From: a virus
IMG/VR virus record: IMGVR_UViG_3300032173_000003
Coordinates: 1 to 64,000 of that record
DNA: 64,000 nt
Reading direction: 5' to 3' (one strand)
Shown one piece after another: positions 10,896 to 61,449 of this stretch; the first letter of the stretch is position 1, and each line of letters starts with the position of its first letter. Made by a program: the position numbers and the translations under genes. The notes under the pieces were generated by a model. That model had not been told where the DNA came from and did no database searches. It saw only the letters and a program-made list of their open reading frames with translations.

Positions 10896-12169
10896 GGTTG
10901 TGCCTCACTTTTAGGGAAAAGGGAATTAAGTCGGCAAGAAGCAATGTCAAAGTATTCTTCACCCATGTCAATGCCGATGAAGTTGTAGCCCATATTCAAA
11001 GCGGCAATGCCAGTTGTTCCGCTCCCCGTGAATGGGTCAAGGATAGTGCCTCCTACCGGCGTGGCAAGCTGGCACAATTGCTTCATTAGCTTCAAAGGTT
11101 TGACTGTGGGGTGAGTGTTGGTTATGTCGAGGGGTAGACCTAGGTTACGTTCTTTTTTAGGTGCTTTAGCGCAGTAGTACAGGCGCTTGGGCTCACTATG
11201 GAGCTTAAACTCACCGGGCAATTTGGTGAAAATGGAGATGGGCTCATTACTGGGTTTTAAGGCCGTGCCGATACCTTGGAATCTATTTGCCTGCTCTGGG
11301 TCAATCTTTTGGATAGCTTTTTCTACATTGTGGGACTTCGGAAATCCACTATTACCCGTGACGAAAACTTTACCATTGCGCCTTGCAACGAAAGCCCCTG
11401 TGCTTACTGTTGGGCACCAGAAGAACCCACTATACTCTATCGTGGTAACTGTCGCTTCTGAGATCGTGTAAGAGCCTCCGTCAACATCCTTCAAGACCGG
11501 CACATTGGCAATGGGTGGTAGTTCCTCAGCCACTTTAAACTCCAAACCCCCGCCTTGACTAATCAAGCAACGGTGCCCTTTGCTAACTATCTGATCCGTT
11601 GCCTCAGATTTGATACTATAGGCAACATCGTTATGGACTAAATACGAGTACCACTTCTCTGGTAACTCCCACCTATACTCACCCGTCACAATGTCGTAGA
11701 TGAGAATTTCTCTACCACCTGGGTTATCCCTCCAGTTGAACCAGCCATCTTTGGTTAGAACTTAAGAGTCCTCGCTTAGGCATCCATACGTCCAGAGCAC
11801 AATATCCTGAAGCTCAAATCCAGCCCCAAGAATGTTAGCAACCATACGGTGCTGAGTCCTTGTCCCTGCAAACGACAGCAGATTCCCCCCAGGCTTCAAC
11901 ACCCGCAGACACTCTGCCCAAATATCCACTGTAGGCACACCAGAGTCCCATTTCTGACCCATGAACCCACCCGTTCCGTTCCCTGTGCTTATGCGGGCAC
12001 GGCCATGGGGGCTGTTAAGATTTACGGACTTTACCCCAGTACCTCCCTTCTTATTCTGGGTCAGACCGTAAGGGGGATCCGTAACAACGGAATCAATGGA
12101 GTTGTCAGGAAAGTCCCTGAGAACGTCAAGACAGTTCCCAAGCAATAGCTGATGGTTTGGCATCTTCAC
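10892..12169 (-). pseudogene. DNA methylase gene with mini-intein, interrupted by one in-frame TAA
   Basis: One continuous frame of 426 codons broken by a single TAA at 11762-11764. N-extein (about 129 residues) has SVVTDPPYGLT and the FAGTRTQHRM region; C-extein has GFPKSHNVEKAI, LYYCAKAPKKERN, THPTVKPLKLMKQL and ILDPFTGSGTTG. Together they make a normal beta-class DNA methylase of about 280 residues (DPPY suggests adenine methylation). Between them sits a mini-intein (11351-11782) in the conserved site before SGFPKSHN. If the stop is not read through, only the N-extein and a downstream piece are made. A TTA-to-TAA change would explain it. It overlaps the RHH gene (upstream) and the degenerate paralogue (downstream) by 4 bases. 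Confidence 0.8.
11351..11782 (-). other. Mini-intein (no homing domain) with a stop at codon 7
   Basis: 144 codons inside the methylase. Block A starts with Cys1 (CLSEDS, stop, VLTKDGW; the usual residue at the stop is a hydrophobic one such as Leu). Block B appears as SKGHRCLIS with its His. The C-terminal part reads WCPTVSTGAFVARRNGKVFV and ends TGN, followed by Ser as the +1 residue. The penultimate residue is Gly instead of the more common His. No endonuclease domain fits in this length. Confidence 0.75.
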
Positions 12170-12438
12170 GGAAGAATAAGGTTGCTTTTTGGCTCTTCGT
12201 CCCTGAGACGAATGATTTCTTTGACAGTCAAATCTCCCGTCTCTTCATACCTGCGGAACGACAGGGCGTAGTTATCAAGCTCAGCATTGATTGCCATAAC
12301 ATATAGCCCGATGGCCCTCTGAACGAGAATGCTCTCAGTGGCACCCTCCCGTTCGGCCAGTTTCTGCAAAGCAGCGGCAAATGTTTCAGGAACTTCAAGC
12401 TCTAATACTTGGTTTTGGTTTTGTTCTTCGGTGGACAT
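12166..12438 (-). CDS. Ribbon-helix-helix (CopG-type) DNA-binding protein
   Basis: About 90 residues from MSTEEQNQNQVLELEV. Pattern of an RHH fold: strand LELEVPETF, helix AAALQKLAEREG, turn ATES, helix ILVQRAIGLYVMAIN. RHH proteins bind DNA as dimers and usually act as repressors. The ATG at 12438 was preferred over 12480 because the latter almost abuts the 161-nt element. It heads the methylase unit and could autoregulate it through the palindromic leader upstream; that is inference. Confidence 0.7.
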   Translation of the reverse strand: MSTEEQNQNQVLELEVPETFAAALQKLAEREGATESILVQRAIGLYVMAINAELDNYALSFRRYEETGDLTVKEIIRLRDEEPKSNLILP

Positions 12439-12486
12439 AATTTCTATTGTGACTGCGATTGCAGCGAGTTGTGAATTCATCAGTAA

Positions 12487-12647
12487 GTGGAACCAAGTTT
12501 TGATAATTTTGTCGGAAACGGGAAGAAAACTTTCTCCCCCTTACCACACTGTCAAAACTTTTGAAAAATTTTTCTGAAGTTGTCAAGCAACCTATGGAAG
12601 TTTTTTCTTAGCGAATTTTGGGCAAAATTATCAAAACTTGGTTCCAC
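12487..12647 (-). repeat. 161-nt inverted-repeat leader element, copy I
   Basis: Ends are perfect 25-base inverted repeats starting GTGGAACCAAGTTTTGATAA. Total 161 bases. As RNA it would fold into a long closing stem with an internal domain. Copy II at 22796-22956 has the same length and nearly the same ends. Within the interior (minus strand) both copies keep GCCC-n-AAAA, CGCUA, a run of A before UUCC, and CAGUGU-n-G-n-AAG at similar spacing, while the rest differs. It starts about 5 bases after the expected start of transcription from the promoter at 12659-12686 and ends about 49 bases before the RHH start codon, so it fills the mRNA leader. Confidence 0.8.
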
Positions 12648-12658
12648 CCGCTAGCCTC

Positions 12659-12686
12659 ATTATAGCAAGCGGGGGCAAGGTGTCAA
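12659..12686 (-). promoter_or_regulatory. Consensus sigma-70 promoter ahead of the 161-nt leader
   Basis: Minus-strand TTGACA, 16-bp spacer, TATAAT with the extended TGC. Full consensus at both boxes. Transcription should begin right at the border of the inverted-repeat element. Confidence 0.8.
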
Positions 12687-12688
12687 CT

Positions 12689-12871
12689 TCAGGCAGTAAC
12701 CTGCCCCACCGGCTTCCACCGAGTGATGGCCGGTCCAGTGAATACCGTTACAGGTTCTCGTAGGGCCTTAGCCATTGCAGCAGCTTCCGTAAAAGCTTCT
12801 TCGCGTGTAAAAGGGCCATCAGGAGCCGAAGACTCCGAAACGGCCCAGAATGGAAAAGTGTCAGGGGTCAT
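12689..12871 (-). CDS. Hypothetical small protein
   Basis: 60 residues starting MTPDTFPFWAVSESS, with EEAFTEAAAMAKAL as a helix and ITRWKPVGQVTA at the end. Compact alpha/beta look, function unknown. Confidence 0.6.
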   Translation of the reverse strand: MTPDTFPFWAVSESSAPDGPFTREEAFTEAAAMAKALREPVTVFTGPAITRWKPVGQVTA

Positions 12872-12932
12872 TGGTGTTGTTGCGTCAACTTACCAATGGT
12901 ATCACACTTTTCTTAGATATGCAAAGGGGAGG

Positions 12933-13628
12933 TCAGTCCCCCGAGGCAAAGAATTGGGACGCATTGGCCCGAACATCTTCAAAGGTGTAGGTCTTGGTGA
13001 TTTCACCATTCTCAAACACTTTTTCCAAGGCGATGGGGTCATTCGACTCATTTTCCAGCGCTGTGTAATAGCCTTGGTCACCCTTAAACAGAGTAACTAA
13101 GCCCTTTTTCGATTCCTTACCGGAGTCAGTAATGGGTTGCTTGAAGACATCTCTCCATTCCCCGTTTACACGGGCAGCAGAGCACTTCATTGCAAACTTC
13201 ATGGTATCCCTATCAACCTGTTGAAGCAATCCGCCCCCTTGCCCGAAAGCAACGTTGTCAGCAGAGAAGCCAGCAGTGGTTATTCTGTAAAGAATCCGTG
13301 CAATCACTTCCTGCGTGATGCCGTCCCCTTGGATGACACGAACGTGGTTAAGGACTTTGAAGCCTTTGGAGTTAGTAGTGGAGCCAAAGTGTCGGTCTAG
13401 GACTTCAAGGCACTTGAGAACGACACTAACGGGGTCACCACTATCCGGGCGAAGAACCACGAACTTCCCCCCACTAGTCTTTTCAATAATTTCCTCCTTA
13501 ATACTTCCCATCAACTCCGCAAAGTTAAAAATGTCGTAAGCATCTCCAACTATAGAGACAAGGGGATGTGTATCCAGGAACTTTAGCATCTGACGAATGT
13601 ACGTCAGTTCATTTTTAGTGTCATTCAT
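12933..13628 (-). CDS. nadV: NAMPT C-terminal half (split nicotinamide phosphoribosyltransferase)
   Basis: 231 residues from MNDTKNELTYIRQML. It carries the second half of NAMPT: VSIVGDAYDIFNF, VVLRPDSGDPVSV, VRVIQGDGI, SADNVAFGQGGGLLQ, RDTMKFAMKCSAAR and SKKGLVTL. The RPDSGDP and GQGGGL loops bind phosphoribosyl pyrophosphate and the product NMN. Intact NAMPT is one chain of about 460-490 residues; here the frame starts in an ATGAATGA overlap with the stop of the N-terminal half, so the two pieces are probably translated together. Neighbouring NadM completes the route from nicotinamide to NAD. Confidence 0.85.
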   Translation of the reverse strand: MNDTKNELTYIRQMLKFLDTHPLVSIVGDAYDIFNFAELMGSIKEEIIEKTSGGKFVVLRPDSGDPVSVVLKCLEVLDRHFGSTTNSKGFKVLNHVRVIQGDGITQEVIARILYRITTAGFSADNVAFGQGGGLLQQVDRDTMKFAMKCSAARVNGEWRDVFKQPITDSGKESKKGLVTLFKGDQGYYTALENESNDPIALEKVFENGEITKTYTFEDVRANASQFFASGD

Positions 13629-14418
13629 TTTGATTAATCCAATCAATAAGAGTAAATGAGCAGTCACGGGGGAGGTTTATTGTGGGAATTGAGGCATAAG
13701 AGCAAGCTATGCTATGTTCACTAGCCGGAATGGAGAAACCTGCGATGTTTTCACCATAAAACTTCCTGGCATAAAGCAACGCAGTTACAGTATCTGTGCC
13801 CTTGAAATTAACTAGGTGAGCCAATCCGCCAATACCGGCACTCTCCAAAGACGAAACACCTCTGGCCCCAAAATCATGAAGCTTGAAGTCAATGAGGCCA
13901 GGGTCCCCGGTCTTGTTCAAATAATCAAGAATAATGCTCTTGCTTTCAAAAGAGTTGGTGGCTACTGTAGTCGGATACCACACAGCCCTCAGCAAAGCAG
14001 TCTCCAAGAAACTTGTCAGCCAGTAGCAGGCGGGGTCGGTGTTTTCAATGGTGAGCAAAACATTTTTAACAGGGATGATGCTACCTTCGGGAGCAGACAT
14101 GATTTTCACAGGCAATTTGCCCCCGTGCTCCCTAAGAATGTACTCCCAACCTTCCCTGTAAAAGGGTTCCCCGTGAGCAAGGATCAAAGATTCTGCATAG
14201 TCGATTTCTTCCTTAGTGATGGGACGGGCGAGCTTAGGCAGGAACATTTGGAGTCCGAACCATTCAACCAAAGCCCACTTACCGCCACGACTCTCGATGT
14301 AGGAGCGGATAATTTCTGTCCCCTCGGGATATTGAACCCATTGCGAATACTTGTACGAATCACTATTCAAGATGATCGAATCATCGATAAAGTTGTTGTT
14401 GCTGAATGTGTTAGTCAT
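13621..14418 (-). CDS. nadV: NAMPT N-terminal half (split nicotinamide phosphoribosyltransferase)
   Basis: 265 residues. Matches the first half of NAMPT: LNSDSYKYSQWVQYPEGT, YIESRGGKW, FGLQMFL, LPVKIMSAPEGSIIPV, CYWLTSFLETALLRAVWYPT, DFKLHDFGARGVSSLESA and FSIPASEHS. After SEHS, where NAMPT should continue into the second half, the frame has about 28 extra residues (CSYASIPTINL...DWINQ) and stops. The DNA here holds a small hairpin (TTGATT/AATCAA) just before the overlap. Either the enzyme works as two subunits or a small insertion and frameshift broke the gene. Confidence 0.85.
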   Translation of the reverse strand: MTNTFSNNNFIDDSIILNSDSYKYSQWVQYPEGTEIIRSYIESRGGKWALVEWFGLQMFLPKLARPITKEEIDYAESLILAHGEPFYREGWEYILREHGGKLPVKIMSAPEGSIIPVKNVLLTIENTDPACYWLTSFLETALLRAVWYPTTVATNSFESKSIILDYLNKTGDPGLIDFKLHDFGARGVSSLESAGIGGLAHLVNFKGTDTVTALLYARKFYGENIAGFSIPASEHSIACSYASIPTINLPRDCSFTLIDWINQNE

Positions 14419-14469
14419 TTTTAAATCCTAAAAATGTTAGTAAGGGCCCTAAGTCTTTCTCAGGGTGTA

Positions 14470-15498
14470 TCAGAGTGTGGTTCCAGTCAAGTTACCGATA
14501 ATTTCCCAGTGGTCTTCAAAGCATTCCTCTGACTTGATTTTGCACAGAGGTACCCATTGGGCCTTTTCAGCATCGGAACCGCCCTTGACTTTGGGTAGTT
14601 CCCCATCGGGCAAGTGAATGTAGAAAGCGTGGGTAATGGTTCTCCCACGGGAGCTGCGATTGATCGCATCATAAACCTTGTTGGCTTTAATGTTCCCTTT
14701 CAGAACCGGGGTGGGAACCTTCAGGCCGGTTTCTTCCCTCAGCTCCCTCAACATGGCGGACTCCACTGAAGGGTCACTGCCAGCGTCCAGGAAGCCCCCA
14801 GGGATGGCCCATAGACCTCGGCCAGGCTCAGCACGGCGCTTCACCATAAGAACGTGGCCGCTCTGAACAACCACGGCGTCCACCGTGACGAACACAGGCG
14901 GATACGCAAGGTGCTCAAACTGCCTCTTATAGGTCTCTACGAACACCCGCTCCCTAATAACTTGTTGGAACTCTTCCGTAAAGGAGAACCCGATCAGCCA
15001 ATCCAACGTGGAAGGTGGAACCACAGACTTCAGGAAGTTGGAATTGAAATCGCTGCGGAAATACAAGTCCCTGATCTTTGTTGCCGAAAGTTCCTCAACT
15101 AGGGCAACTTCTTCCAAGCTCCACTGGGGGAACATATCAAGGTAGAAGGAAGTTTCATCTTTCTTGTGACCGATGATTGCTACTTTAGCATCAGCGTCGG
15201 TAACATTGTTAGCAACAATATCCTGAACTCTTGCCGCCCAAGCATTATCATTGTAGATTGTGTCTTTGGTTGGTACAATGACTAACTCAGCATCAATTTC
15301 ACTTTCCAGTTGCTGAATCAGTTGTTGCCTCTCTATGAAAGAGAAAGGGTTTTTATAAGTTCTTGGTTGGTCAGCAGAACCGACTATCACAATGACCCGG
15401 TCACTGAGTTCTGCCGCCTTTTTCAAAATTTGAACGTGTGCGTTGTGAACTGGCTGAAATCGCCCGATGAACACAACTGCATTGTACTTCTTGGTCAT
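14470..15498 (-). CDS. nadM: Bifunctional NMN adenylyltransferase / Nudix hydrolase
   Basis: 342 residues. Residues 1-180: NMN adenylyltransferase with GRFQPVHNAHVQILKKA (the G-x-F-x-P-x-H-x-x-H signature) and the second signature ELSATKIRDL. Residues 200-340: Nudix domain with GGFLDAGS and RELREETGL; the linker between them is two residues longer than usual and the first Glu of the Nudix box is not obvious. It converts NMN plus ATP to NAD; the Nudix part likely hydrolyses ADP-ribose. Preceded by its own promoter and a good Shine-Dalgarno (AAGGAG). With NAMPT it forms the salvage route known in phages as a way to restore NAD (NARP2 type). Confidence 0.9.
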   Translation of the reverse strand: MTKKYNAVVFIGRFQPVHNAHVQILKKAAELSDRVIVIVGSADQPRTYKNPFSFIERQQLIQQLESEIDAELVIVPTKDTIYNDNAWAARVQDIVANNVTDADAKVAIIGHKKDETSFYLDMFPQWSLEEVALVEELSATKIRDLYFRSDFNSNFLKSVVPPSTLDWLIGFSFTEEFQQVIRERVFVETYKRQFEHLAYPPVFVTVDAVVVQSGHVLMVKRRAEPGRGLWAIPGGFLDAGSDPSVESAMLRELREETGLKVPTPVLKGNIKANKVYDAINRSSRGRTITHAFYIHLPDGELPKVKGGSDAEKAQWVPLCKIKSEECFEDHWEIIGNLTGTTL

Positions 15499-15546
15499 TG
15501 TAAACTCCTTACAATTAGTGAATAAGACGTCTGTCGTCTCGTTGTT

Positions 15547-15574
15547 AGTATAGCACGGAAGACTCCGGGGTAAA
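15547..15574 (-). promoter_or_regulatory. Promoter of the NAD salvage operon
   Basis: Minus-strand TTTACC, 16-bp spacer, TATACT with extended TGC. Leader of about 40 bases, then AAGGAG and the nadM ATG. Confidence 0.7.
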
Positions 15575-15584
15575 TGCCCAGGGC

Positions 15585-15890
15585 CTAGCCGTTTTCCTGG
15601 GACCTACGTTCCCTCTGCATCTTTTCTACTCTTTTCAAAATAAGATACCCAAGTAAATCCCACTCAGGGTCTTCATCTTCGTTGTCTTTACGGTTAGCAA
15701 TGCGATTGAGTTTATCATCGATTCTAACGTTTAGTTGTTCAGCAGTATCTGCTCGGCTAAAGATACGTGCAGGGTGCAAAGCTGCATCCCCGTACTTAAA
15801 GTTTTTCTCCAGCAAAAGCTCTTTAACCTCGTCACAAACTGCGGCAATATCGAGTTGCGATTGGTGCTGACTTGTTGAACTATTTCCCAT
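15585..15890 (-). CDS. DUF1599/MazG-like protein
   Basis: About 101 residues from MGNSSTSQHQ; an upstream start at 16007 would add 39 residues of doubtful sequence. The core CDEVKELLLEKNFKYGDAAL, then IDDKLNRIANR and EDEDPEWDLLGYLIL, matches the DUF1599 (Nmad1) pattern, an all-alpha group related to MazG-type nucleotide pyrophosphohydrolases that often sits in phage nucleotide-modification sets. Acidic residues in the KYGD and EWDLLGY helices would bind metal. Confidence 0.65.
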   Translation of the reverse strand: MGNSSTSQHQSQLDIAAVCDEVKELLLEKNFKYGDAALHPARIFSRADTAEQLNVRIDDKLNRIANRKDNEDEDPEWDLLGYLILKRVEKMQRERRSQENG

Positions 15891-16037
15891 ACTTCTTAAG
15901 AGATTTTTCTGTAATTGTGCGGTAATAAGATTGATACCTTGCAAATCTTCCCACTGATGGAGTGACGCCCAAACTCCAGCAACACTCACAGTACGATAAA
16001 AACTCATACCAAGGTGTCGTAGGGTCGAGAGCAGGCA

Positions 16038-16235
16038 TTAAAGCTTTCCTCCTACTGACCCTTCGTAATTGGAGTCAGACTGTGTGAAGCCTTCTTGTAG
16101 ACCCTTCAGGTAGAATCGGGTGGCTTCAATGCACCCTTCTTCAGTGAACGAGATGACTAATTTTTCACCTTTATCGTTGACCGAGTGCCATGTGCCCCAC
16201 CTGGACTTTTCTGTTTTGAAGCAATCGTCAATCAT
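16038..16235 (-). CDS. Hypothetical small protein
   Basis: 65 residues starting MIDDCFKTEKSRWGTWH. Overlaps the upstream small gene by 8 bases. No family recognised. Confidence 0.6.
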   Translation of the reverse strand: MIDDCFKTEKSRWGTWHSVNDKGEKLVISFTEEGCIEATRFYLKGLQEGFTQSDSNYEGSVGGKL

Positions 16236-16398
16236 CGGTTTCTACCATATTTGTAATGGGGCGGCAGTCTCCTTTCCCTGCCAAAGACTTGACAAACAGT
16301 TCGGTGAATCTTGCCTGGTGTTCTGGTGCCACGGACTGAGGGTACCCGTCAATAGCACCCTTCAGTGCTACCAGTTCTTCCCACTCTGTTGCGTTCAT
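16228..16398 (-). CDS. Hypothetical small protein
   Basis: 56 residues: MNATEWEELVALKGAI, a helical body (HQARFTELFVKSL) and CRPITNMVETDD at the end. Overlaps both neighbours (ATGA upstream). Confidence 0.55.
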   Translation of the reverse strand: MNATEWEELVALKGAIDGYPQSVAPEHQARFTELFVKSLAGKGDCRPITNMVETDD

Positions 16399-16604
16399 CG
16401 GAGGCACTCCACTATTTTGCCCACACAGAGAGCTTTCTCCATGGCATAGTACATCCCTACGGGCGGGAGGACGATAGAAGCAAATTTAGGAAACCCTATC
16501 GGAGCAACCACCATCCCCGCAAACCACCATAGCAGAACAGCCATTGAGAACAGATGTGAGACACCGGTATCAATCCGTATAGTTTTGTTTTCTTGGGGTT
16601 CCAT
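16395..16604 (-). CDS. Small membrane protein
   Basis: 69 residues with a hydrophobic centre (SMAVLLWWFAGMVVAPIGF and ASIVLPPVGMYYA), suggesting one or two membrane passes. Overlaps the next gene by 4 bases. Confidence 0.6.
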   Translation of the reverse strand: MEPQENKTIRIDTGVSHLFSMAVLLWWFAGMVVAPIGFPKFASIVLPPVGMYYAMEKALCVGKIVECLR

Positions 16605-16686
16605 GGAGATGGGGAGCTTTCGTAGCTATTTTAGGGGGGACGGGCAAAAAGTAAACCCCTCCAGTTGCTTGGAGAGGTTCATAGAG

Positions 16687-16995
16687 TCAGAACTTAAGGT
16701 AAAGACCGGTTGTGGTTTCAAACAAGGGGCGCAGTTGATCGGCATAGATGCCTGCGAACTCTTGCACCTTGGGGCAAGTGAGTTTCTTAGGGGAGAACTT
16801 AAAGAATTCCACACTGTAGAGGTCAGAACCTTTGCAATAGGTGACTCGGCACTTGTTGGCTTTGCGAAAGCCCTTAAAGTCAAAGGTGATGGCTTCGTCG
16901 TCGCAAACAACGGCTTTGGTACCTAGCATCATGCGGAGGGCGCCGATGCCGCCAATTTGGTCAATGATGGTTTCAGCGCAAGCGGTGATGGCCAT
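16687..16995 (-). CDS. Conserved phage-type hypothetical protein
   Basis: About 102 residues from MAITACAETIIDQIGG. It fits a small family met in phages and bacteria: an N-terminal QIGG helix, a MMLGTKAVVCDDEAITFDFK strand, KANKCRVTY, DLYSVEFFKF and a closing GIYADQLRPLFETTTGLYL. The promoter-like TATAAT at 17027-17032 just upstream supports this start over 17055. Function unknown. Confidence 0.65.
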   Translation of the reverse strand: MAITACAETIIDQIGGIGALRMMLGTKAVVCDDEAITFDFKGFRKANKCRVTYCKGSDLYSVEFFKFSPKKLTCPKVQEFAGIYADQLRPLFETTTGLYLKF

Positions 16996-17026
16996 GTTCT
17001 GCGGGGAGCGATTGACTGACTTACAT

Positions 17027-17055
17027 ATTATAGCAGATTTGAAGGGGGTGCGCAA
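17027..17055 (-). promoter_or_regulatory. Sigma-70-type promoter
   Basis: Minus-strand TTGCGC, 17-bp spacer, TATAAT with extended TGC. Drives the gene at 16687-16995. Confidence 0.6.
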
Positions 17056-17064
17056 CCCTCGGTC

Positions 17065-17292
17065 TCAGCGCTTCCGGTAGCGGAACTTGACGCTGGTGAC
17101 AGGCCCGCAAGTCTCGCTCCGATGCGCCATTGCCTTAACCCAGGATTCTACAATGTCGGGGCTAATGACGGGTAGAGGTTCCCCTGCAGGAACCAAGGTG
17201 GGCCGGGGATTGCTGCACTTGACCTTGGCACCGTTTGCAAAGGTAACCTCTACGAACCGGGTGTAGGGCAGGTAGTTGGTAGTGTTGGTCAT
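17065..17292 (-). CDS. Hypothetical small protein
   Basis: 75 residues from MTNTTNYLPYTRFVEV. A TACAAT (17317-17322) with extended TGC upstream supports starting at 17292 and not further out. Beta-rich, basic C-terminus (KFRYRKR). Unknown. Confidence 0.6.
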   Translation of the reverse strand: MTNTTNYLPYTRFVEVTFANGAKVKCSNPRPTLVPAGEPLPVISPDIVESWVKAMAHRSETCGPVTSVKFRYRKR

Positions 17293-17353
17293 TTGCTCAG
17301 GGATAGCAACAGGGTTATTGTAGCACGATTGGACAGGAACTGCCAGTTCCGAA

Positions 17354-17521
17354 TCAGACCACCTGGCTGTAGGCCCCGGTCTCATAACGAATGACAGTAT
17401 AGAACCGCTTGCCACGGGGGCGCTTCAGGGTCAGAGCTGCCCGACCAGGGAACACGGGGATCTCCTTTGCTGCGAGCACAAGGTAGGTAACGTTGTCCAG
17501 AGTCAGAGTGGCGTCGGTCAT
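17354..17521 (-). CDS. Hypothetical small basic protein
   Basis: 55 residues (MTDATLTLDNVTYLVL...), beta-rich, ending RYETGAYSQVV. Its size and style are typical of the small early genes around it. Confidence 0.55.
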   Translation of the reverse strand: MTDATLTLDNVTYLVLAAKEIPVFPGRAALTLKRPRGKRFYTVIRYETGAYSQVV

Positions 17522-17584
17522 GTGCTCGTGGTGGTTGACTTATATAGTATAACAGGTTTAGGCGGGTGATGCAACTCCCGGCAG

Positions 17585-17770
17585 TTAGAACAAAGGGAGC
17601 TGGATAAACCGGGGGTCAGGATTAGGAATGATACCGTGTCCCAGAGCCCCTTCCCGTTCCATGTCAGTTACCGCATCTTCCACGGCAGCAATGTTCCCAA
17701 TGCCGACCTTACCAAACAGGAAGTTTACGAATTGCTGGTCAGTCAGGGCGCCGATTTCTTTGGGGTCCAT
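17585..17770 (-). CDS. Hypothetical small protein
   Basis: 61 residues starting MDPKEIGALTDQQFVNFLFG; two helices then a Pro-rich end. Unknown. Confidence 0.6.
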   Translation of the reverse strand: MDPKEIGALTDQQFVNFLFGKVGIGNIAAVEDAVTDMEREGALGHGIIPNPDPRFIQLPLF

Positions 17771-17821
17771 GGTTCAAGGGGAGTAACAACAAACTAATTA
17801 TACTACGTTGGCCAAAATCAA

Positions 17822-17995
17822 TCAGAGGTGACCAAGACGCTCACCGTCCTCAAAGACGTTGATTCGGGCGGTTTTACCGAAGATGGTCACTTTGTAGATC
17901 CAACCGTCTTCATCCATAGAGGTCAGTTCCGCTGCTAGCTTTACAGCTTCTTCAATGGTGAACTTGGTGGGGGGCTGAAGGTCGAGGCGAATCAT
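17822..17995 (-). CDS. Hypothetical small protein
   Basis: 57 residues from MIRLDLQPPTKFTIEEA; an alternative ATG lies at 18031. An alpha/beta fold is likely (IYKVTIFGKTARINVF). Unknown. Confidence 0.6.
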   Translation of the reverse strand: MIRLDLQPPTKFTIEEAVKLAAELTSMDEDGWIYKVTIFGKTARINVFEDGERLGHL

Positions 17996-18031
17996 GGTTT
18001 CAGTGCCGACTATCTTAATATTGTACCACAC

Positions 18032-18256
18032 TCACGGGTAACAGCAAGGCTGGTAGGTGAAACGGGTGGAGGCTCGGCTGCAACCTGTGATGGCTAGAAC
18101 TTCGTCAGCCAACTGCTCGGGAACCGGATAAAAACCTCCAGTGCAGGCAGTGTTCCAGCTATACCAGCCACGGATTTTACCTGTGGTGCGAAACATCGTC
18201 TCCCGTGCCCTGTGTGAGGAGCACTTGATCAGGATGGTGGAAGGGGGCAGACTCAC
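18032..18256 (-). CDS. RGWYSW-family small protein, GTG start
   Basis: 74 residues. LPPSTILIKC near the start, then TTGKIRGWYSW and FYPVPEQLADEV are conserved features of a small phage/cyanobacterial family, and they argue for the GTG start at 18256 over the internal ATG at 18196. Function unknown. Confidence 0.6.
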   Translation of the reverse strand: MSLPPSTILIKCSSHRARETMFRTTGKIRGWYSWNTACTGGFYPVPEQLADEVLAITGCSRASTRFTYQPCCYP

Positions 18257-18289
18257 GGGTTTTTCCGGTGTTCGTCCCCCTCGGTTTAA

Positions 18290-18544
18290 TCAGTTGGACT
18301 TAAGCAGGCGACCGGGGAGAGCCCCTTTGGCGAAGCGCTTACCGTCAACATAGAAGAGCCTGTAGAGACGTCCGGGGCGAACTGCCGGGGTAACGGTGCA
18401 GTCAACGGTGGCACCATTGATGCGAACCGTGTAGGTTGTCTTCTGGTTGGTCCCCAGAGCAGTCTCAACGGTTTCGTTCTCAATGGTATCGAGGCGTGTA
18501 GCCAGAGTTTCGGGCTTGCGAATGGTCAGAGGGGGGAGAGCCAT
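18290..18544 (-). CDS. Hypothetical basic protein
   Basis: 84 residues from MALPPLTIRKPETLATRL. Beta-rich and basic (VRPGRLYRLFYVDGKRF). Upstream codons of this frame lie in the Dam gene, so the internal ATG was chosen. Confidence 0.55.
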   Translation of the reverse strand: MALPPLTIRKPETLATRLDTIENETVETALGTNQKTTYTVRINGATVDCTVTPAVRPGRLYRLFYVDGKRFAKGALPGRLLKSN

Positions 18545-18611
18545 TGTCTTTGTTGTGGTGGGCAGCCTTGCCGCCCTTGTCCCTATATTGTAACCCCTTG
18601 TTCCCAGACTG

Positions 18612-19448
18612 TCAACCTCCTTCCCCTGGGCCGAAAACTGCGATAATTTCCTGAGCTTTTTTGCGACTTTCAGCATTTGCTGAAATAGTCCTTGATACTG
18701 AAATAGAAGTTATCTCAGCTCCCTCGTAGAGTTCCCTTGTAATTTCGCAATCGCTGTTAGTGATAACTACCTTTATGCCCCTGCTTGACAGGTCGTGAGC
18801 TAGCGTGACCAACTCTGTCTGCTGAGCAAAAGAGAACCCGTCAGCGGAATAGCTGGTGAAGTTTGAAGTTGCTGAGGCAGGTACGTAAGGGGGGTCAAAA
18901 AATACTACGTCACCTTCTTCAAGAGTTTCATAGAGTGACCCATCTTCAAAAGATAAAGCCGTAAATGATACAGATTCCTTGCTCTCGAAGAAACTACCAA
19001 ACTCCCTCATTTCCTTCTCCGGAAAATGTGGAGACAGGTACTTACCAAACGGTACATTGAAGCCACCGCTTTTATTGTACCGAGTCAAGCCATTAAAGCA
19101 ATGCCGATTCAAGTAAATAAACAAGCCGGCCCTCTCAACCCCGTAGTCTAACGAATTGAATAAAGCTCTCAGCTCGATAAATTTTTCTTTCCTGTTGTTA
19201 TCAGGAGTAAACCATTCTTGGCATGTACACAAAAATTCCTCAGAGTTTTCACCCGTGAGGATACTGTATACTGCGGTAAGGTCGTTGTTAATATCATTCA
19301 GCACATACTCGCAAGCAGAAAGATTGAGGGCAGCCGCCAGGCTACCCCCAAAAGGCTCACAGTATCGTTTTGGACTACCAACGATGGGGAGTAAGTGAGG
19401 CAGGACCCTGTATTTGTTTCCTGCCCACTTTAAAAAGGGTTTAGGCAT
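18612..19448 (-). CDS. dam: DNA adenine methylase (Dam family)
   Basis: 278 residues from MPKPFLKWAGNKYRVLPHLL. Motifs of the Dam/alpha class in order: AdoMet-binding KWAGNK and YCEPFGGSLAAAL, the Dam-specific NRHCFNGLTRYNKSG with FNVPFGKY, and catalytic VVFFDPPYVP near residue 190. Such enzymes methylate the adenine of GATC. It overlaps the stop of the gene at 19441-19929 by 8 bases. It may protect phage DNA against GATC-specific enzymes or modify the host pattern. Confidence 0.9.
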   Translation of the reverse strand: MPKPFLKWAGNKYRVLPHLLPIVGSPKRYCEPFGGSLAAALNLSACEYVLNDINNDLTAVYSILTGENSEEFLCTCQEWFTPDNNRKEKFIELRALFNSLDYGVERAGLFIYLNRHCFNGLTRYNKSGGFNVPFGKYLSPHFPEKEMREFGSFFESKESVSFTALSFEDGSLYETLEEGDVVFFDPPYVPASATSNFTSYSADGFSFAQQTELVTLAHDLSSRGIKVVITNSDCEITRELYEGAEITSISVSRTISANAESRKKAQEIIAVFGPGEGG

Positions 19449-19929
19449 CAACTTTGTTGTAATATCGGTCTGCAAAGTCTGCAAACTCGATGATTTCTAC
19501 ATCGGGATAACGTTCTTGATTCCGTGCATAGCAGCGGGAAAATTTGTTCTTGGAGAGGAAAGCCTTGCCCCAAGTCATGTTATCGTTGGGGTCGTCAATG
19601 ACGATAATGGCACGTTTCCACCCATACGTGTCACAGGCGTCTTGGAGACACTGGACTTCAGTCAGGAGCTTGTCGTCTACTGAACCAGAAACCGTTTGAG
19701 AGCGGATACTAATAAGTTCCTCCCGTTCAGGGATAACTCCATCGACTCGGAAAGCTCTCCCAGTGATTTTTTCACCGATAATCACTTCCGGAAAATAAGA
19801 GTAGGTGCTAAGATGATTCATCCCGGCAGCAATTGACTTTTCCAGTCGTTGGCGGGGTTTGTACTTCCCGGCGAGAAAGGTAAGTCCATTGCCAATTTCA
19901 AACTCTTGAAGACTAGACTTGCGGGCCAT
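19441..19929 (-). CDS. Possible PD-(D/E)xK-like nuclease next to Dam
   Basis: 162 residues starting MARKSSLQEFEIGNGL. The central part FRVDGVIPEREELISIRSQ followed by TVSGSVDDKLLTEVQCLQDA and a Rossmann-like strand RAIIVIDDP resembles the core of PD-(D/E)xK nucleases (VDG, then E-x-I-x-R/K, then SGSVDDK). The usual catalytic Lys is replaced by Arg in SIRSQ, so activity is uncertain. Position and overlap with dam suggest a restriction-like pair; that is inference. Confidence 0.5.
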   Translation of the reverse strand: MARKSSLQEFEIGNGLTFLAGKYKPRQRLEKSIAAGMNHLSTYSYFPEVIIGEKITGRAFRVDGVIPEREELISIRSQTVSGSVDDKLLTEVQCLQDACDTYGWKRAIIVIDDPNDNMTWGKAFLSKNKFSRCYARNQERYPDVEIIEFADFADRYYNKVDA

Positions 19930-20021
19930 TGGTTTTGTGTAATGTAGTGTTAAAATAGTTTACTGACTTTGCGGTCAGCTGACCTTATTGTAGCGGCTTC
20001 AGAGGTATAGTAAAGGTGGAG

Positions 20022-20375
20022 TCAGGCAGCCTTTTGGCTGCAAACGTGAATGGTCGCAGTCTCCAGCAAGGTACCATCGGGCAGCTCACACAGTAGAGAG
20101 CTGGTGAAGCCCCGCGCCTTGCGTCCTTTGACCGTCACGATACCTTCTAGCTGGTAGCCGCTCTCATAGCAGCCTGAGAGGGTCCTGGGACCATACAGAG
20201 TATAGGTCTCAACCCAACCTAGGCTGTTAAACTTGGCACTGACAGCAGGGGCCATGTATCGGATCGGAACATTCCACATTCCTACTGTCTCAAGCTCCCC
20301 ACGCTGGTCCTCAAGGTTGGGGGATATGTATTGCTGCCATTGCTCCACTGTGAGCTTCAGTGCGCCCCCAGTCAT
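20022..20375 (-). CDS. Hypothetical protein
   Basis: About 117 residues from MTGGALKLTVEQW. A TACAAT box with TTGAG upstream sits on the outer part of this frame (about 20478), so translation must start inside, leaving a leader of roughly 90 bases. Beta-rich middle (WVETYTLYGPRTL), tail TIHVCSQKAA. Unknown. Confidence 0.55.
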   Translation of the reverse strand: MTGGALKLTVEQWQQYISPNLEDQRGELETVGMWNVPIRYMAPAVSAKFNSLGWVETYTLYGPRTLSGCYESGYQLEGIVTVKGRKARGFTSSLLCELPDGTLLETATIHVCSQKAA

Positions 20376-20512
20376 CGTCAGGGTTAGCGGAGGGAGCCGC
20401 TTGGAGAGGGAGCTGGTGCGAGGCTTGTTAAGGGTTGCGATCACGGTGGTTGCCAGGGTGCAGGAATTTAAAGATTGTAGCATACTGAGGGTGGGCTCAA
20501 CCCAACCCCAAG

Positions 20513-20719
20513 TCAGAAGCCGGGGTAAATAACCATCTCAACCTTGAGGGGAGACTTCCGGTTTTTGTGCCTACGGAAAGCATAGTTGTCGTCCGTGTAC
20601 ATTTGCTCGATGCGGGAGTTATCCTCAATGATGGCCTCAGAGCTGATACGTTCACGGGCAGCAAATTTGCGGTCCCTGGAAATCTGAGCACGGTAGATGG
20701 TGGAAGAAGAGCGAGCCAC
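20513..20719 (-). CDS. Hypothetical basic protein, GTG start
   Basis: 68 residues; GTG at 20717-20719 chosen because GGAG lies 5 bases before it and the promoter at 20768-20797 rules out starts further upstream. Charged, ends KVEMVIYPGF. Unknown. Confidence 0.5.
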   Translation of the reverse strand: MARSSSTIYRAQISRDRKFAARERISSEAIIEDNSRIEQMYTDDNYAFRRHKNRKSPLKVEMVIYPGF

Positions 20720-20767
20720 AGGGATCTCCAGACGAGGTAAAGGTGGCGGTTGCCCGCCACTTAAAGT

Positions 20768-20797
20768 ATTGTAGGGCATAGAAGGCCCCGGTGTCAA
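20768..20797 (-). promoter_or_regulatory. Sigma-70-type promoter
   Basis: Minus-strand TTGACA, 18-bp spacer, TACAAT. Overlaps the end of the gene at 20794-21042. Confidence 0.7.
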
Positions 20798-21042
20798 CCT
20801 ATGATCTTAGCCAGGTAGGTAGCTTGAGTCTTGCTGCGAGCGGCAGCCTTGCGGGTGTGCTTTGCCTTGGCAACCACCGTGGGTGGAACTACCAGGACTT
20901 CATTGGCCCAGGCAAGCAGTTGCTTACGGTCCATTGCCGGGGTAGGGTAGCTAAGGATTTGGTAGAAGTTTCCTTTAACCCTTTCAACAGGGTTGCGACG
21001 ACCGATTACGGTCTGAACTTGGGCGATGGTGGTGAGTTTCAT
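20794..21042 (-). CDS. Hypothetical basic protein
   Basis: 82 residues (MKLTTIAQVQTVIGRRN...), with a basic C-terminal half (KHTRKAAARSKTQATYLAKI) that could bind nucleic acid. Unknown. Confidence 0.6.
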   Translation of the reverse strand: MKLTTIAQVQTVIGRRNPVERVKGNFYQILSYPTPAMDRKQLLAWANEVLVVPPTVVAKAKHTRKAAARSKTQATYLAKIIG

Positions 21043-21069
21043 TGTTTTCGGGGGGGAGTAAAGTTCGTA

Positions 21070-21402
21070 TCAACGAACCATGGAAGGATTCCGTTCGGCT
21101 GCAGTCAGTGCAGGGTGGAAACGGTCGCTTTCATAGTCGCTTTCATCTTCCTCGGGCAAGTAGACCGTCAAGGTGTAGCTGCCTCCTTTATTATCGAAGG
21201 CAACCAGAGTTTCTTCCAGGTCAGAGAAGTGGCAGAAGTCGTCATCAAATTCACCCTCAAGGTGAAAGTAGAGAGTCTCTTTGCTATTGCAGGAGTCGCC
21301 AAGGCGAACGTCACAGAGAGGGTGGTCGGTAACGGTGACACCTTGAAGGGCTTCCTTAAGAGTCTCAGGCTGCCAATTGTCGGAGGAGTCGTAGAAAGCC
21401 AT
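21070..21402 (-). CDS. Hypothetical acidic protein
   Basis: 110 residues starting MAFYDSSDNWQPETL, very acidic in the middle (EEDESDYESD). Beta-rich. Unknown. Confidence 0.6.
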   Translation of the reverse strand: MAFYDSSDNWQPETLKEALQGVTVTDHPLCDVRLGDSCNSKETLYFHLEGEFDDDFCHFSDLEETLVAFDNKGGSYTLTVYLPEEDESDYESDRFHPALTAAERNPSMVR

Positions 21403-21475
21403 GGGAGAGGCGTTTGGCGGTTACTTAAGTATTGTAAGGGGTGGGGGGCTGCTGTCAACCCCCCCTGCCGCTGGC

Positions 21476-21841
21476 TCAGAACTTGAGCGTAGGCACAAAG
21501 TTATCAAAGACAAGGTCAGCGATATTTTCCACCTCCTTTGCAAACGAGATGGTGTTAGGGATTGCCACGGTTTGCGCCCAGGGAGTAGCCACAGTAGTCA
21601 ACCAGTGGTTGACTGCGGTGAAGGCAGCTTTTAACTTTTCGGCAACAAAATCAACGACCTTTGCGGTCTGTTCCTTGCCACCGTTCAACCACCAGACTTG
21701 AGCACGTTCAAACAGAACTTGAGCGATGGCAGCAGCAAACAGAGCTACGGTAACGATTTGGTTGGCAATCTTGCGGTATTCAATTTTCTGGAGCATGGCG
21801 ACGAGGGCGTCAGCCGGGGGGAAAGACTTGGTGAGTTCCAT
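21476..21841 (-). CDS. Membrane-associated hypothetical protein
   Basis: 121 residues with a hydrophobic helix at about residues 28-48 (IVTVALFAAAIAQVLFERA) and Ala-rich amphipathic helices after it. Unknown. Confidence 0.6.
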   Translation of the reverse strand: MELTKSFPPADALVAMLQKIEYRKIANQIVTVALFAAAIAQVLFERAQVWWLNGGKEQTAKVVDFVAEKLKAAFTAVNHWLTTVATPWAQTVAIPNTISFAKEVENIADLVFDNFVPTLKF

Positions 21842-21964
21842 TTTAGGTTGGGGGAAGGGGAATTGAAAGGCGTCCCTGCCACTCCTTAATTATGCCACAC
21901 TTGGTCGTTGGTGTCAAGGGCAGTGTGCCAGTGGCGAGACTGGCACCTTAACCCCGAGATTAAA

Positions 21965-22294
21965 TCACCCTTTGCGCCCCATCCTGCCCTGGTAATCATT
22001 CATAACGAACCAGACATCGAGAGCAGCATTATGGTAGTCATTGTCTTCAATGGCGTTCTTGAAGTTGTCATAGTCAATGTTTTGAATCTCGTTAAGCATT
22101 GCGTTAGCTACAACATCACGGTTTACCCAGGCCCGGAAAGCATAGTCACTTCCGGCGGCACTGAATACCTTGGCATCTTCAAAGACATTCTCAATGTCTC
22201 CTGCACGGCGAGCACGGACTAGAAGCCTGTCGCCATTGACATCTCCCCGATCAGAAACGATTGATAGGAAAGCGTTCTTAGTAAAAATCCACAT
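21965..22294 (-). CDS. Conserved phage/bacterial hypothetical protein (MWIFT family)
   Basis: About 109 residues from MWIFTKNAFLSIVSDRGDVN. Fits a family with MW-[IL]-x-T...SIV, RLLVRARRAGDIENVF, SDYAFRAWVNRDVVANA and IDYDNFKNAI, often found in phage and plasmid genomes. The outer ATG at 22336 lies at the promoter, so the internal start is preferred. Function unknown. Confidence 0.7.
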   Translation of the reverse strand: MWIFTKNAFLSIVSDRGDVNGDRLLVRARRAGDIENVFEDAKVFSAAGSDYAFRAWVNRDVVANAMLNEIQNIDYDNFKNAIEDNDYHNAALDVWFVMNDYQGRMGRKG

Positions 22295-22324
22295 TTGGTT
22301 AAGGGAAAAGTCAGTTTCGTAACT

Positions 22325-22353
22325 ATTGTAGCACATTGGGGGTCGGTCGTCAA
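22325..22353 (-). promoter_or_regulatory. Sigma-70-type promoter
   Basis: Minus-strand TTGACG, 17-bp spacer, TACAAT with extended TGC. Drives the MWIFT-family gene. Confidence 0.7.
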
Positions 22354-22424
22354 CCCTTAGAAAGTTTCAACAAAGTAGTAAGGAGCATGACCCCCACCGT
22401 TAAACCTGCAATGTAAATACTCAC
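22350..22424 (-). CDS. 24-residue membrane peptide, GTG start
   Basis: SIYIAGLTVGVMLLTTLLKL forms one membrane helix, followed by a short basic end. The GTG lies 2 bases after the stop of the gene upstream. Too short to be certain it is translated. Confidence 0.4.
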   Translation of the reverse strand: MSIYIAGLTVGVMLLTTLLKLSKG

Positions 22425-22426
22425 GG

Positions 22427-22741
22427 TCAGTCTCGTTTCAAGCGGTCATTGCCCTCATTGTGGAAGAAATCGACTAATTCATCCAGATCTTGAATACCTA
22501 CCAAGTGGTTGGATGGGTCAGGGTCCCCTAGATCCAAATCTTGGAGGAAGCTATCCAAGCTATCTTTTTTCGGAACACCTTGGAAAGCAGTACGCAAAGC
22601 ATTACGAATAATCTTTCCTGCGTGAGCATTGTGCTTAGCCCACTTATCTGCCCACACCCTCTCGGTAAAGGATACAGGTTCACCGCTCTCCAGTCGTCTG
22701 GCAATTTCCTCAAGCCGTAGCCTTACTTCGGTAGAAATCAT
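22427..22741 (-). CDS. Hypothetical protein behind the second 161-nt leader
   Basis: 104 residues from MISTEVRLRLEEIARRLESG; helical, charged, with WADKWAKHNAHAGKII and a DxD-rich end. The outer ATG at 22786 lies only 10 bases from the inverted-repeat element, so the inner start was preferred (55-base spacing, similar to copy I). Function unknown. Confidence 0.6.
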   Translation of the reverse strand: MISTEVRLRLEEIARRLESGEPVSFTERVWADKWAKHNAHAGKIIRNALRTAFQGVPKKDSLDSFLQDLDLGDPDPSNHLVGIQDLDELVDFFHNEGNDRLKRD

Positions 22742-22795
22742 AGCTGTCAATAGCAAACTGGTTTGAATCTGATAGGATTTACCCACGCTTTTCAG

Positions 22796-22956
22796 GTGGA
22801 ACCAAGTTTTGATAATTATGGTAGGAAGTCAAGACAGAATTTTTCCATCAGCTCACTTGCTACACTGCGGACGAAAATTTTTATCTGTGCGGGAATCTCT
22901 GGGGGAAACTTTTTGTAGCGTCGTTTTCGGGCAAAATTATCAAAACTTGGTTCCAC
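22796..22956 (-). repeat. 161-nt inverted-repeat leader element, copy II
   Basis: Same length and near-identical ends as copy I (12487-12647): 24 of 25 terminal bases pair. The interior differs but keeps matching blocks. GCUAC and GUAGC, about 60 bases apart in the transcript, can pair; the matching positions in copy I can pair with wobbles (GCUA with UGGU). It ends about 55 bases before the ATG of the gene at 22427-22741 and follows a terminator directly. Confidence 0.8.
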
Positions 22957-22964
22957 TGCCCATA

Positions 22965-22996
22965 GAAAAAACCCCCGGAGGTTAATCCAGGGGTTC
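22965..22996 (-). terminator. Rho-independent terminator
   Basis: Minus-strand RNA has AACCCC...GGGGGUU with an inner GG/CC pairing, followed by a U6 run. Ends the gene at 23012-23425, immediately upstream of copy II. Confidence 0.7.
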
Positions 22997-36715: not shown

Positions 36716-36834
36716 TGGGACCGGCAGGATTCGAACCATGCAACCACTCCTTTAAACGAGGTATTTTTTAATTGCTGATGTATCTTGTACAAGATAACTT
36801 TTATTTAGTGCTCTACCAGTTGAGCTACGGTCCC
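36716..36834 (-). tRNA. tRNA-Lys-like gene with a 45-nt insertion in the anticodon stem
   Basis: Acceptor GGGACCG/CGGTCCC, D arm GCTC/GAGC, variable loop TGGTT and T arm TTCGAAT are normal and close to bacterial tRNA-Lys (one extra T bulges in the T stem). After C27-T28 the sequence is interrupted by 45 bases (36762-36806). Removing them restores a perfect 5-bp stem CTCCT/AGGAG and a loop CGTTTAA (anticodon TTT, Lys), although position 33 would be G where T is almost universal. The insertion holds TTATCTTGTACAAGATA (hairpin) and CAGCAATTAAA. Confidence 0.7.
36762..36806 (-). other. Insertion in tRNA-Lys-like gene (mini-intron candidate)
   Basis: 45 bases, A/T-rich. A 7-bp hairpin (TATCTTG/CAAGATA), then CATCAGCAATTAAAAAATA. 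Same plan as the other two insertions and as the two leader elements in this cluster. Confidence 0.6.
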
Positions 36835-36938: not shown

Positions 36939-37061
36939 TCGAAGAGGCAAGATTCGAACTTGCGTATAGCGGTTCCCTTAGTGTATTTAATTGCTGAATC
37001 ATCTCTATCGAGATAATTTTTTTTTTACATGACCGCTGCCTGACCACTCGGCTACTCTTCG
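36939..37061 (-). tRNA. Gln-like tRNA gene with an insertion of about 51 nt in the anticodon loop
   Basis: Acceptor CGAAGAG/CTCTTCG (7 bp perfect), D arm GCC/GGC, anticodon stem GCGGT/ACCGC and T arm GCAAG/CTTGC with TTCGAAT are all intact. The loop, however, is 58 bases long (36974-37031). It holds hairpin ATCTC-GATA-GAGAT and TTCAGCAATTAAA, flanked by TGTA and TACA. The final loop bases are CTAAGGGA; no exact 7-base loop with T33 can be drawn, so the anticodon is unknown; the Gln-like label rests on the D arm only. Confidence 0.65.
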
Positions 37062-37179: not shown

Positions 37180-37298
37180 TCGGGGAAGAAGGAATCGAAC
37201 CTCCGTCACGTCCTGTCTGATGGAATTTTAGTAATTGCTGTCTGTACCTTAAACAAGATAACTGTTAATTACGTGTGCTACCACTGCACCATTCCCCA
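37180..37298 (-). tRNA. tRNA-like gene with a 47-nt insertion in the anticodon stem
   Basis: Acceptor TGGGGAA/TTCCCCG (first pair T-G), D arm GTGC/GCAC, T arm GGAGG/CCTTC with TTCGATT. Between base 29 and base 30 lies a 47-base insertion (37224-37270). Joining the flanks gives a perfect 5-bp stem CGTCC/GGACG but an 8-base loop ATCAGACA, so the identity stays open. The insertion has hairpin TATCTT/AAGGTA and GACAGCAATTAC, with GTAATT/AATTAC as an outer stem. Confidence 0.6.
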
Positions 37299-37709: not shown

Positions 37710-37925
37710 TTATTTACCCCAAAGAAGCTGGAATAAGTTCCTCTTTCTTTTTCGTTTAGGGACATCTGTCCAGAAGTTCCTCACCGTAACTGTTTCACCG
37801 TTACCTAGGTCTATGTTTGACGTAGGTTTGGAACGGTCCCGATTAAAGAACCCTTGCTGAAAAGCCTCAGAAATTGCAGGGTTTGCTAAGATGGCCCTGA
37901 GCTGGGGGGAAATGATGCCCTTCAC
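37710..37925 (-). CDS. Small basic protein, GTG start
   Basis: 71 residues; GTG overlaps the stop of the DUF2828 gene (GTGA). KGIISPQLRAILANPAISEA, then FQQGFFNRDRSKPTSN and a basic tail KRKRKRNLFQLLWGK. Coupled to the DUF2828 protein, perhaps its partner. Unknown. Confidence 0.55.
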   Translation of the reverse strand: MKGIISPQLRAILANPAISEAFQQGFFNRDRSKPTSNIDLGNGETVTVRNFWTDVPKRKRKRNLFQLLWGK

Positions 37926-39388
37926 GATAACCCGAACGCTGTACCAACTGGGGCGTAACGCTCGGCATAGACCGCATTCTTCATAACCTCGATGGGAGTA
38001 ATCACCTTGCCGGTAAGAACCGATGTGAGGATTGAAGGGCTGCAGCCAGAAACAAGGCAAGTGCCCGTATCGTGCATCTTCATGGGGACGTTGCCCCCGG
38101 CGTTAACATTCCAGAACACAAGCTCAGGCAAAGAATATCCAGCTTGGGCGTACTTGATTCGGATTGCTTCAAAGTTTGTAACTGAAGCCCCTGTGCAACA
38201 CCGGTCAAACTCCATGTCTGAAACAATGATGAGCTTGCGGGGCATGTCTCCTTCGGGGACATTGTTTCTAACCGCAGTATTCAACACCAGGTTAAATACC
38301 GCTTGAAGGTCCGTACTCATCCCCCAAGCTGCATTGGAAAGGTTCCTGATGCGTTGGGCAATTGTTTGACCAGTTACAGTTTGCAGTTCGGGAGTTGAAG
38401 AGAAAGTCAAGAACTTGTCTTTCCAGATCCCAGTGTTGCGCTCCGAGATATACATCGCCATAGAGATGGAAACTGCCATAGGAGTTCCATACATGGAGCC
38501 AGAGACGTCAGCAACAACAAGTCCGTTAAACTCTTGACCCTCCATGTAGTTAGGCAGAGCCTCCCACATTAGGTTCAGGGTTTGGTCACTGGATTCACCT
38601 TTGTTCAGGTACTTGTCTACGATTTCGTAAGGATAGATGGTGCCAGCATTAATCTTAGCCTCACCCTTTTCAACAGCATTGAGGTACGTTTGGTAACGTT
38701 CCCCATCACGTTTTGCGAAAGCCTTGCGATACATAAAGCCAGCCCGAGAAGGCAACTTGCTGTAATCAATATTTTCCCATTCACGGGAGCACATTGCTTG
38801 TTCGACAATTCGGATTTGCGTACGAAGGGCGGTGAGAGCCTTGCGGTATTGGCGCTCAGACCAACCCATTGCTTCGGCAATCTTGCGGCCGATGCGCTTT
38901 GATTCTTTACTGGAAGCATTAACCGAAGGCAGCCACTTTGCAAGTAGGGAAACAGAGTTTCCTACTTCCGTATTCAAGTCAGTGGTAAGCTGAGTCTTGA
39001 TGGCGTTCAAGGCAACATCCCAGACCAGGGTTCCCTCAAGTACCACCAAGTCGTCCCAACGTCCGAACTCAGGAATCAGACCGACAAGTTTAGCGCCGAT
39101 TGTAGCGTCACTGCGCACAAGTTCCTTAAACAGTTCACGGAAGATTTTGCGCTCACCTTGGCCTCCACGAATGTCGCGAGCCCAAAATAGAATCCTGGCT
39201 GCAGTTTCTGCGTCTTCGGCGTAAGCCAGGTTGAATAGGCGAACGGCTTCAGGCACATTGTCACGGCAGGCCGCAATCTTACCAAAAAGGTCAAGATTCT
39301 TGGAACCTGTGGACTTATAGGCTTTTGCGCCGTTTGCAGTCGTGGTGGTATTGAAGTTGTTCTCTAGAGCGTTTAGAAATGTCGTCAT
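37922..39388 (-). CDS. DUF2828/Ro60(TROVE)-like vWA-domain protein
   Basis: 488 residues. N-terminal 270: helical repeat region with NGAKAYKSTGSKNLDLF, ILFWARDIRGGQGERKIFREL and LIPEFGRWDDLVVL, the pattern shared by DUF2828 and TROVE proteins. C-terminal part: von Willebrand A domain with the MIDAS DVSGSMYGTPMAVS, IIVSDMEFDRC and later acidic and Thr positions. This two-part layout is that of Ro60, which binds Y RNAs and misfolded small RNAs as a ring. It lies directly upstream of the interrupted tRNAs, and bacterial Y RNAs contain a tRNA-like module; a similar RNP is inference. Own promoter at 39484-39511. Confidence 0.75.
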   Translation of the reverse strand: MTTFLNALENNFNTTTTANGAKAYKSTGSKNLDLFGKIAACRDNVPEAVRLFNLAYAEDAETAARILFWARDIRGGQGERKIFRELFKELVRSDATIGAKLVGLIPEFGRWDDLVVLEGTLVWDVALNAIKTQLTTDLNTEVGNSVSLLAKWLPSVNASSKESKRIGRKIAEAMGWSERQYRKALTALRTQIRIVEQAMCSREWENIDYSKLPSRAGFMYRKAFAKRDGERYQTYLNAVEKGEAKINAGTIYPYEIVDKYLNKGESSDQTLNLMWEALPNYMEGQEFNGLVVADVSGSMYGTPMAVSISMAMYISERNTGIWKDKFLTFSSTPELQTVTGQTIAQRIRNLSNAAWGMSTDLQAVFNLVLNTAVRNNVPEGDMPRKLIIVSDMEFDRCCTGASVTNFEAIRIKYAQAGYSLPELVFWNVNAGGNVPMKMHDTGTCLVSGCSPSILTSVLTGKVITPIEVMKNAVYAERYAPVGTAFGLS

Positions 39389-61225: not shown

Positions 61226-61365
61226 TGCAATGAGTCAGAGTGCGGTTGCTCAAACGGCAACGGCAATCCTCTCGAATTTGACGATTTTGTTAGCGTCTAT
61301 TTTGTGCTTATGCAAGCGGCTTTCAGTGATTGGCTTGCTGTCGGTCGATTCCAGAGCGGACCCGT

Positions 61366-61446
61366 GGTGGAGAGGTGGGATTCTAACCCACATTAGACCT
61401 TTCCCCATGAGTAATAGTGAGGGAGAGCGGTCTAAGTTCTCTCAAT
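61366..61446 (-). other. tRNA-like remnant 1
   Basis: T arm GTGGG/CCCAC with loop TTAGAAT, followed by CTCTCCACCA, and a 5' end TTGAGAG that pairs 6 of 7 with it. Between them a 7-bp stem TTAGACC/GGTCTAA encloses about 29 bases; D and anticodon arms cannot be drawn. Degenerate tRNA or tRNA mimic. Confidence 0.4.
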
Positions 61447-61449
61447 GGA

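Follow-up and report, generated by a model that had tools for sequence, protein, structure and literature searches.

The window analysed here, a 64,000-nucleotide stretch of viral DNA (positions 1 to 64,000 of IMG/VR record IMGVR_UViG_3300032173_000003), carries two palindromic elements on its minus strand, copy I at 12487-12647 and copy II at 22796-22956. The first-pass annotation had described them as inverted-repeat elements of equal length with 25-base ends, and its coordinates are right: both are exactly 161 bp long, the arms of copy I (12487-12511 and 12623-12647) forming a perfect 25-bp inverted repeat and those of copy II (22796-22820 and 22932-22956) matching exactly over 22 bp and at 24 of 25 positions overall. 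With at most three mismatches allowed, the arm pattern occurs four times in the window and not once in 100 shuffles. A third copy lies beyond the window, at 65211-65373 of the 87,020-bp source record (163 bp, with 161 bp between the outermost paired bases), and a fourth, L1, lies in a second IMG/VR contig, IMGVR_UViG_3300032173_000023 (L001:1127-1289, 163 bp). The length is thus kept in relatives (161, 161, 163 and 163 bp), the gap between the arms ranges from 111 to 119, and the copies are the sole inverted repeats in the source record and the L1 contig that score at least 15 with a gap of 30-400 nt. The complete genome of cyanophage S-CBWM1, scanned for inverted repeats of that strength, contains none. 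Taken together, these are four dispersed copies of a short non-coding unit of 161-163 bp with terminal inverted repeats of 22-25 bp, as expected of a MITE. At the same time, direct repeats were sought at the borders of all four copies and no target-site duplication was found, in agreement with what had been seen for the first two.

Copy I is flanked by the NAMPT gene and by the first gene after the element, a 104-aa ORF with no assigned function (12166-12480, minus strand) that may instead start at 12439. On the same strand, a promoter-like site, TTGACA-16-TATAAT at 12659-12686, agrees with the consensus at 12 of 12 positions, a consensus match only, and its second hexamer ends 11 bases before the element, so that the earlier placement of copy I at a predicted transcription start is supported by a perfect sigma-70-type promoter match. 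No promoter match was found before copy II on its strand; directly upstream of it stands a terminator-like hairpin (22969-22996, minus strand), an 11-pair stem followed by a T run, which is likewise a consensus match only. Downstream of copy II is a 119-aa ORF (22427-22786, minus strand; phrog_507, no assigned function) whose start may be 22741. The distance of about 50 bases first proposed between element and start codon holds if translation begins at ATG 12439 and ATG 22741 (48 and 55 nt), but ATG 12480 and GTG 22786 are further candidates in these frames. NAD salvage genes, for a nicotinamide phosphoribosyltransferase and a cytidyltransferase/NUDIX protein, are found together with a tRNA-His guanylyltransferase-like gene at 12933-13667 and 14470-15498 (-) of the window and at L009:3028-3882 (-).

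The other two copies have quite different neighbours. Copy III falls in the 3' portion of a 258-aa ORF; the next start follows after about 100 nt, and a helicase region is nearby. L1 has a kinase-like gene on one side, with a stop codon that takes in the element's first base, and a baseplate/tail fibre gene on the other. Three of the four copies (I, II and L1) are therefore intergenic and just upstream of a co-directional gene, and all four share one orientation relative to transcription, an agreement that would arise by chance about 1 time in 8. By simple ORF tiling the source genome is about 83% covered, and of random 161-bp windows taken from it about 6% are as free of genes as copies I and II. 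Since homologous copies stand beside unrelated genes, the element is dispersed, and mobility of some form is needed whether it is read as an RNA leader or as a MITE.

The carriers belong with the cyanophages. Encoded in the source record are DNA methyltransferases, an RNA ligase, tRNAs, a PstS resembling that of marine cyanophages and a Ro-like RNA-binding protein with 63% identity to a protein of Synechococcus phage B23. Next to the Ro-like gene (37922-39388, minus strand) stand three RNAs of about 120 nt that resemble tRNAs (36716-36834, 36939-37061 and 37180-37298, minus strand), possibly Y RNAs of the tRNA-mimicking YrlA kind; in phage B23 the Ro-like homologue has an undetermined tRNA, 110 nt long, at its side. 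The window also contains a permuted tmRNA at 61250-61495 (minus strand; Rfam RF04321, 55.8 bits, above the gathering score) and a 492-aa ORF with SLH and OprB porin domains (55357-56835, minus strand) that resembles a cyanobacterial outer-membrane porin. The source record and the L1 contig have almost nothing in common but the element, and we at one stage regarded them as two unrelated phages; this was dropped because both are syntenic with S-CBWM1, which the source record proteins match mainly at 18-32 kb and the L1 contig mainly at 71-90 kb. Both are probably incomplete, and judged by this synteny they may be different pieces of related phages, for which reason we do not claim transfer between unrelated viruses. 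At least four homologous copies occupy unrelated places on two cyanophage contigs of one lineage.

Comparison of the four copies sets the ends sharply apart from the middle. The outer 20 bases are the same in all eight arms except for one terminal base of copy III, and the middles are 47-72% identical between copies; in columns, 40/40 or 39/40 matches in the outer 20+20 stand against 42-85 of 115-121 in the middle, a contrast with Fisher p values of 1e-5 to 1e-12 in every pair of copies. The middles are nevertheless homologous in one orientation for the best-supported pairs (z up to 10), copies I and III being the sole pair whose middles align better reversed. Copy II, at 72% identity in the middle and E=2e-32 across 166 columns, stands nearer to L1 of the other contig than to copy I (59%), with which it shares a genome, and copy I matches L1 with E=1e-9. 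Just inside the conserved ends, copy III carries A at positions 21-23 of each arm and copy I carries T, a concerted change that keeps the pairing. On the evidence of these alignments the ends are conserved as sequence, beyond what pairing alone would ask of them.

Folded as RNA, the whole element is far more stable than its shuffles (z -5.0 to -7.5). The middles taken by themselves do no better than shuffles, either as RNA (z -0.97 to +0.89) or as DNA, so the stability of the whole comes from the closing stem, and a consensus fold of the four copies holds little in common beyond that stem, in which 19 of 20 pairs are invariant. The pairing reported in the first-pass annotation is accordingly preserved in its outer part, the closing stem being kept in the copies, including through the concerted change in copy III; its proposed second pairing, GCUAC/GUAGC, is complete in copy II but partial in copy I and not kept in copy III or L1, and 52.9% of its cells are paired, no excess over shuffles. 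Within the middles of the four copies we found no covariation, no conserved pairing and no excess stability, and a ligand-binding or catalytic fold, of the riboswitch or ribozyme kind, is therefore unlikely. Indeed, a conserved internal RNA fold was rejected on these grounds, and the Rfam search returned no family above the gathering score for the element, its sub-threshold microRNA matches being generic hairpin matches. A coding role, as an in-frame insert of the Rickettsia kind, was also set aside: the element has 21 stop codons where 26.5 are expected, and 78 of 1000 shuffles have as few.

Further copies, a source and a mover were sought widely. IMG/VR, scanned also with relaxed end patterns, yielded no copy outside the source record and the L1 contig, and annotated phages and plasmids yielded none. 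A covariance model built from the four copies was run on 390 class-wide and 300 single-family (small-genome) cyanobacterial genomes and detected the full element in none of them, on which ground we rejected a host chromosomal origin in those cyanobacteria. Inverted repeats recovered with the relaxed pattern (L043-L050) and weak model matches in relatives do not share the outer ends and are attributed to chance. No parent insertion sequence with the element's ends was seen, though one may exist in unsequenced DNA; 28 bacterial contigs carry an exact 17-mer, in each case as an unpaired chance match. No Y1 transposase (RAYT, Y1_Tnp) is present in the available sequence of the source record or the L1 contig, both probably incomplete, and transposase families other than Y1 were checked on a subset of the ORFs. 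The ORF that holds copy III and the L1 baseplate protein have no IMG/VR homologues besides the source contig, so that no empty orthologous site was available for alignment.

The same covariance model did bring out palindromes of about 55 bp that occur genus-wide in one cyanobacterial genus (L150, L156, L188-L205), probably Pseudanabaena to judge from one plasmid match. Their arms, GGAACCAATTTTTGAT, often vary together between copies, and both arms contain the core GGAACCAAnTTTTGAT. That core is shared with the phage element. The match scores 44.5 bits (E 6e-6 per genome), whereas the mirrored control reached no more than 29 bits on the same 390 genomes, which would suit an element captured from host repeats, its ends deriving from palindromes spread through Pseudanabaena. 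We nonetheless consider such a capture very improbable: the common part is the 15-base core only, the cyanobacterial unit has a GC-rich loop of 19-22 nt in place of the 110-nt middle, a match of this length may have arisen by chance given how frequent hairpins are, and there is no sign of this phage infecting Pseudanabaena, the matches being mainly to tRNA. With so short a core in common and hairpins so abundant, we treat the Pseudanabaena match as a lead only.

Overall, we lean, at slightly better than even confidence, toward a dispersed, non-autonomous palindrome of this cyanophage lineage, about 161 bp long, of REPIN- or Correia-like architecture and moved in trans by way of its ends. The ends would be recognised in trans by a recombinase or transposase, encoded perhaps in a part of the phage outside the available sequence, in another virus or in the host; by analogy with REPINs or Correia elements, the unit would be moved by these ends, and the middle would serve as a spacer of constrained length. 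Where a copy falls in a transcribed leader, as predicted for copy I, the RNA could close into one stem of 20-25 bp around a large loop, and this stem might, as in Correia elements, be a substrate for a double-strand RNase. Several observations count against a freely moving unit, namely the want of a target-site duplication, of a Y1 transposase and of any copy beyond the two contigs, the last of which leaves us with no known donor or mover, as well as the shared orientation of all four copies, which a free mover does not demand.

That orientation is among the facts that make a leader role through the closing stem the main rival, one compatible with the same observations and with the documented action of RNase III on Correia leaders. 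The element would then belong to a family of phage cis-regulatory RNAs in which the closing stem protects, processes (through RNase III) or regulates the downstream gene, as a small regulon. The three intergenic copies upstream of co-directional genes, in a genome where few windows are as gene-free, the promoter match abutting copy I, the order of terminator-like hairpin, element and gene at copy II, the folding of the whole element and the joint change in both arms of copy III all speak for it, and we regard it as a tentative alternative, well short of even probability. A stem, however, requires pairing and not identical 20-base arms, and it is the identity that is almost invariant; the middles lack conserved structure, copy III is located in an ORF, at its 3' end, the downstream genes have no evident common function, and no Rfam family is matched above its gathering score. 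The initial preference for an RNA leader over a MITE accordingly survives in part: length, closing stem, orientation and the upstream position of three of four copies are as it would have them, but the unstructured middles, the place of copy III and the unrelated neighbours are not.

Regardless of whether the stem acts as RNA, the ends may matter as DNA. Two inverted binding sites of 20-22 bp about 120 bp apart, for a phage protein of replication, recombination, packaging or transcription looping, would account for ends conserved as sequence in eight of eight arms around a free middle, for the near-constant spacing and for several copies per genome. We find this doubtful, since the middles are still homologous in one orientation, more than spacing requires, no binding protein was identified, and the complete genome of the syntenic S-CBWM1 is without such an inverted repeat. 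Somewhat less doubtful to us, though still unlikely, is a phage-specific hairpin regulon, a dispersed element placed before unrelated genes whose ends are kept by the binding of a phage or host protein and which coordinates those genes during infection.

The trans-moved palindrome, our preferred reading, has to be set against known repeats and RNAs. To our knowledge, dispersed palindromic repeats of the REPIN and Correia type are known mainly from bacterial chromosomes and have rarely been described in viruses; the presence in a compact cyanophage of a family with conserved ends, near-fixed length and a free middle suggests that such units can live in viruses, and makes it testable whether phages supply or borrow the moving machinery and whether viral gene expression is rewired. 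REPINs are doublets of REP sequences that form hairpins and are thought to be mobilised by RAYT transposases. Their invariant inverted 16-mers and less conserved spacer of fixed length have been ascribed to ends recognised by a transposase acting in trans (PMC3116915). The phage element likewise has inverted, invariant ends, a less conserved spacer of conserved length, a palindromic hairpin form and dispersed, extragenic copies; it differs in its few copies, in its virus genome, in that no RAYT or Y1 gene was found in the available sequence, and in its arms, which are not REPs (imperfect palindromes with a conserved tetranucleotide foot), no arm by itself being palindromic on inspection. Cis-regulatory RNAs (wcaG, manA and glnA of Rfam) have been reported in T4-like cyanophages (PMC9964418); the element matches none of them and is without a conserved internal fold. 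Rickettsia palindromic elements, 105-146 bp long, are found in reading frames as well as between genes (PMC2229807), and the phage element resembles them in being palindromic and in the placement of copy III inside an ORF, but only this one copy is in frame and stop codons are not significantly depleted. Correia elements carry target duplications, with terminal TA, of which none was found for the phage element, and with no target duplication and no Y1 transposase we do not claim that it belongs to the REPINs or the Correia elements. Nonetheless, the long form of Correia elements, 153-157 bp, often lies 5' of genes and is acted on by RNase III (PMC2649163), and it is with these Neisseria repeats (Correia/NEMIS) that the phage element shares a similar size, terminal inverted repeats of about 25 bp, a frequent position 5' of genes and a stem in the leader (PMC2649163, PMC2229807).
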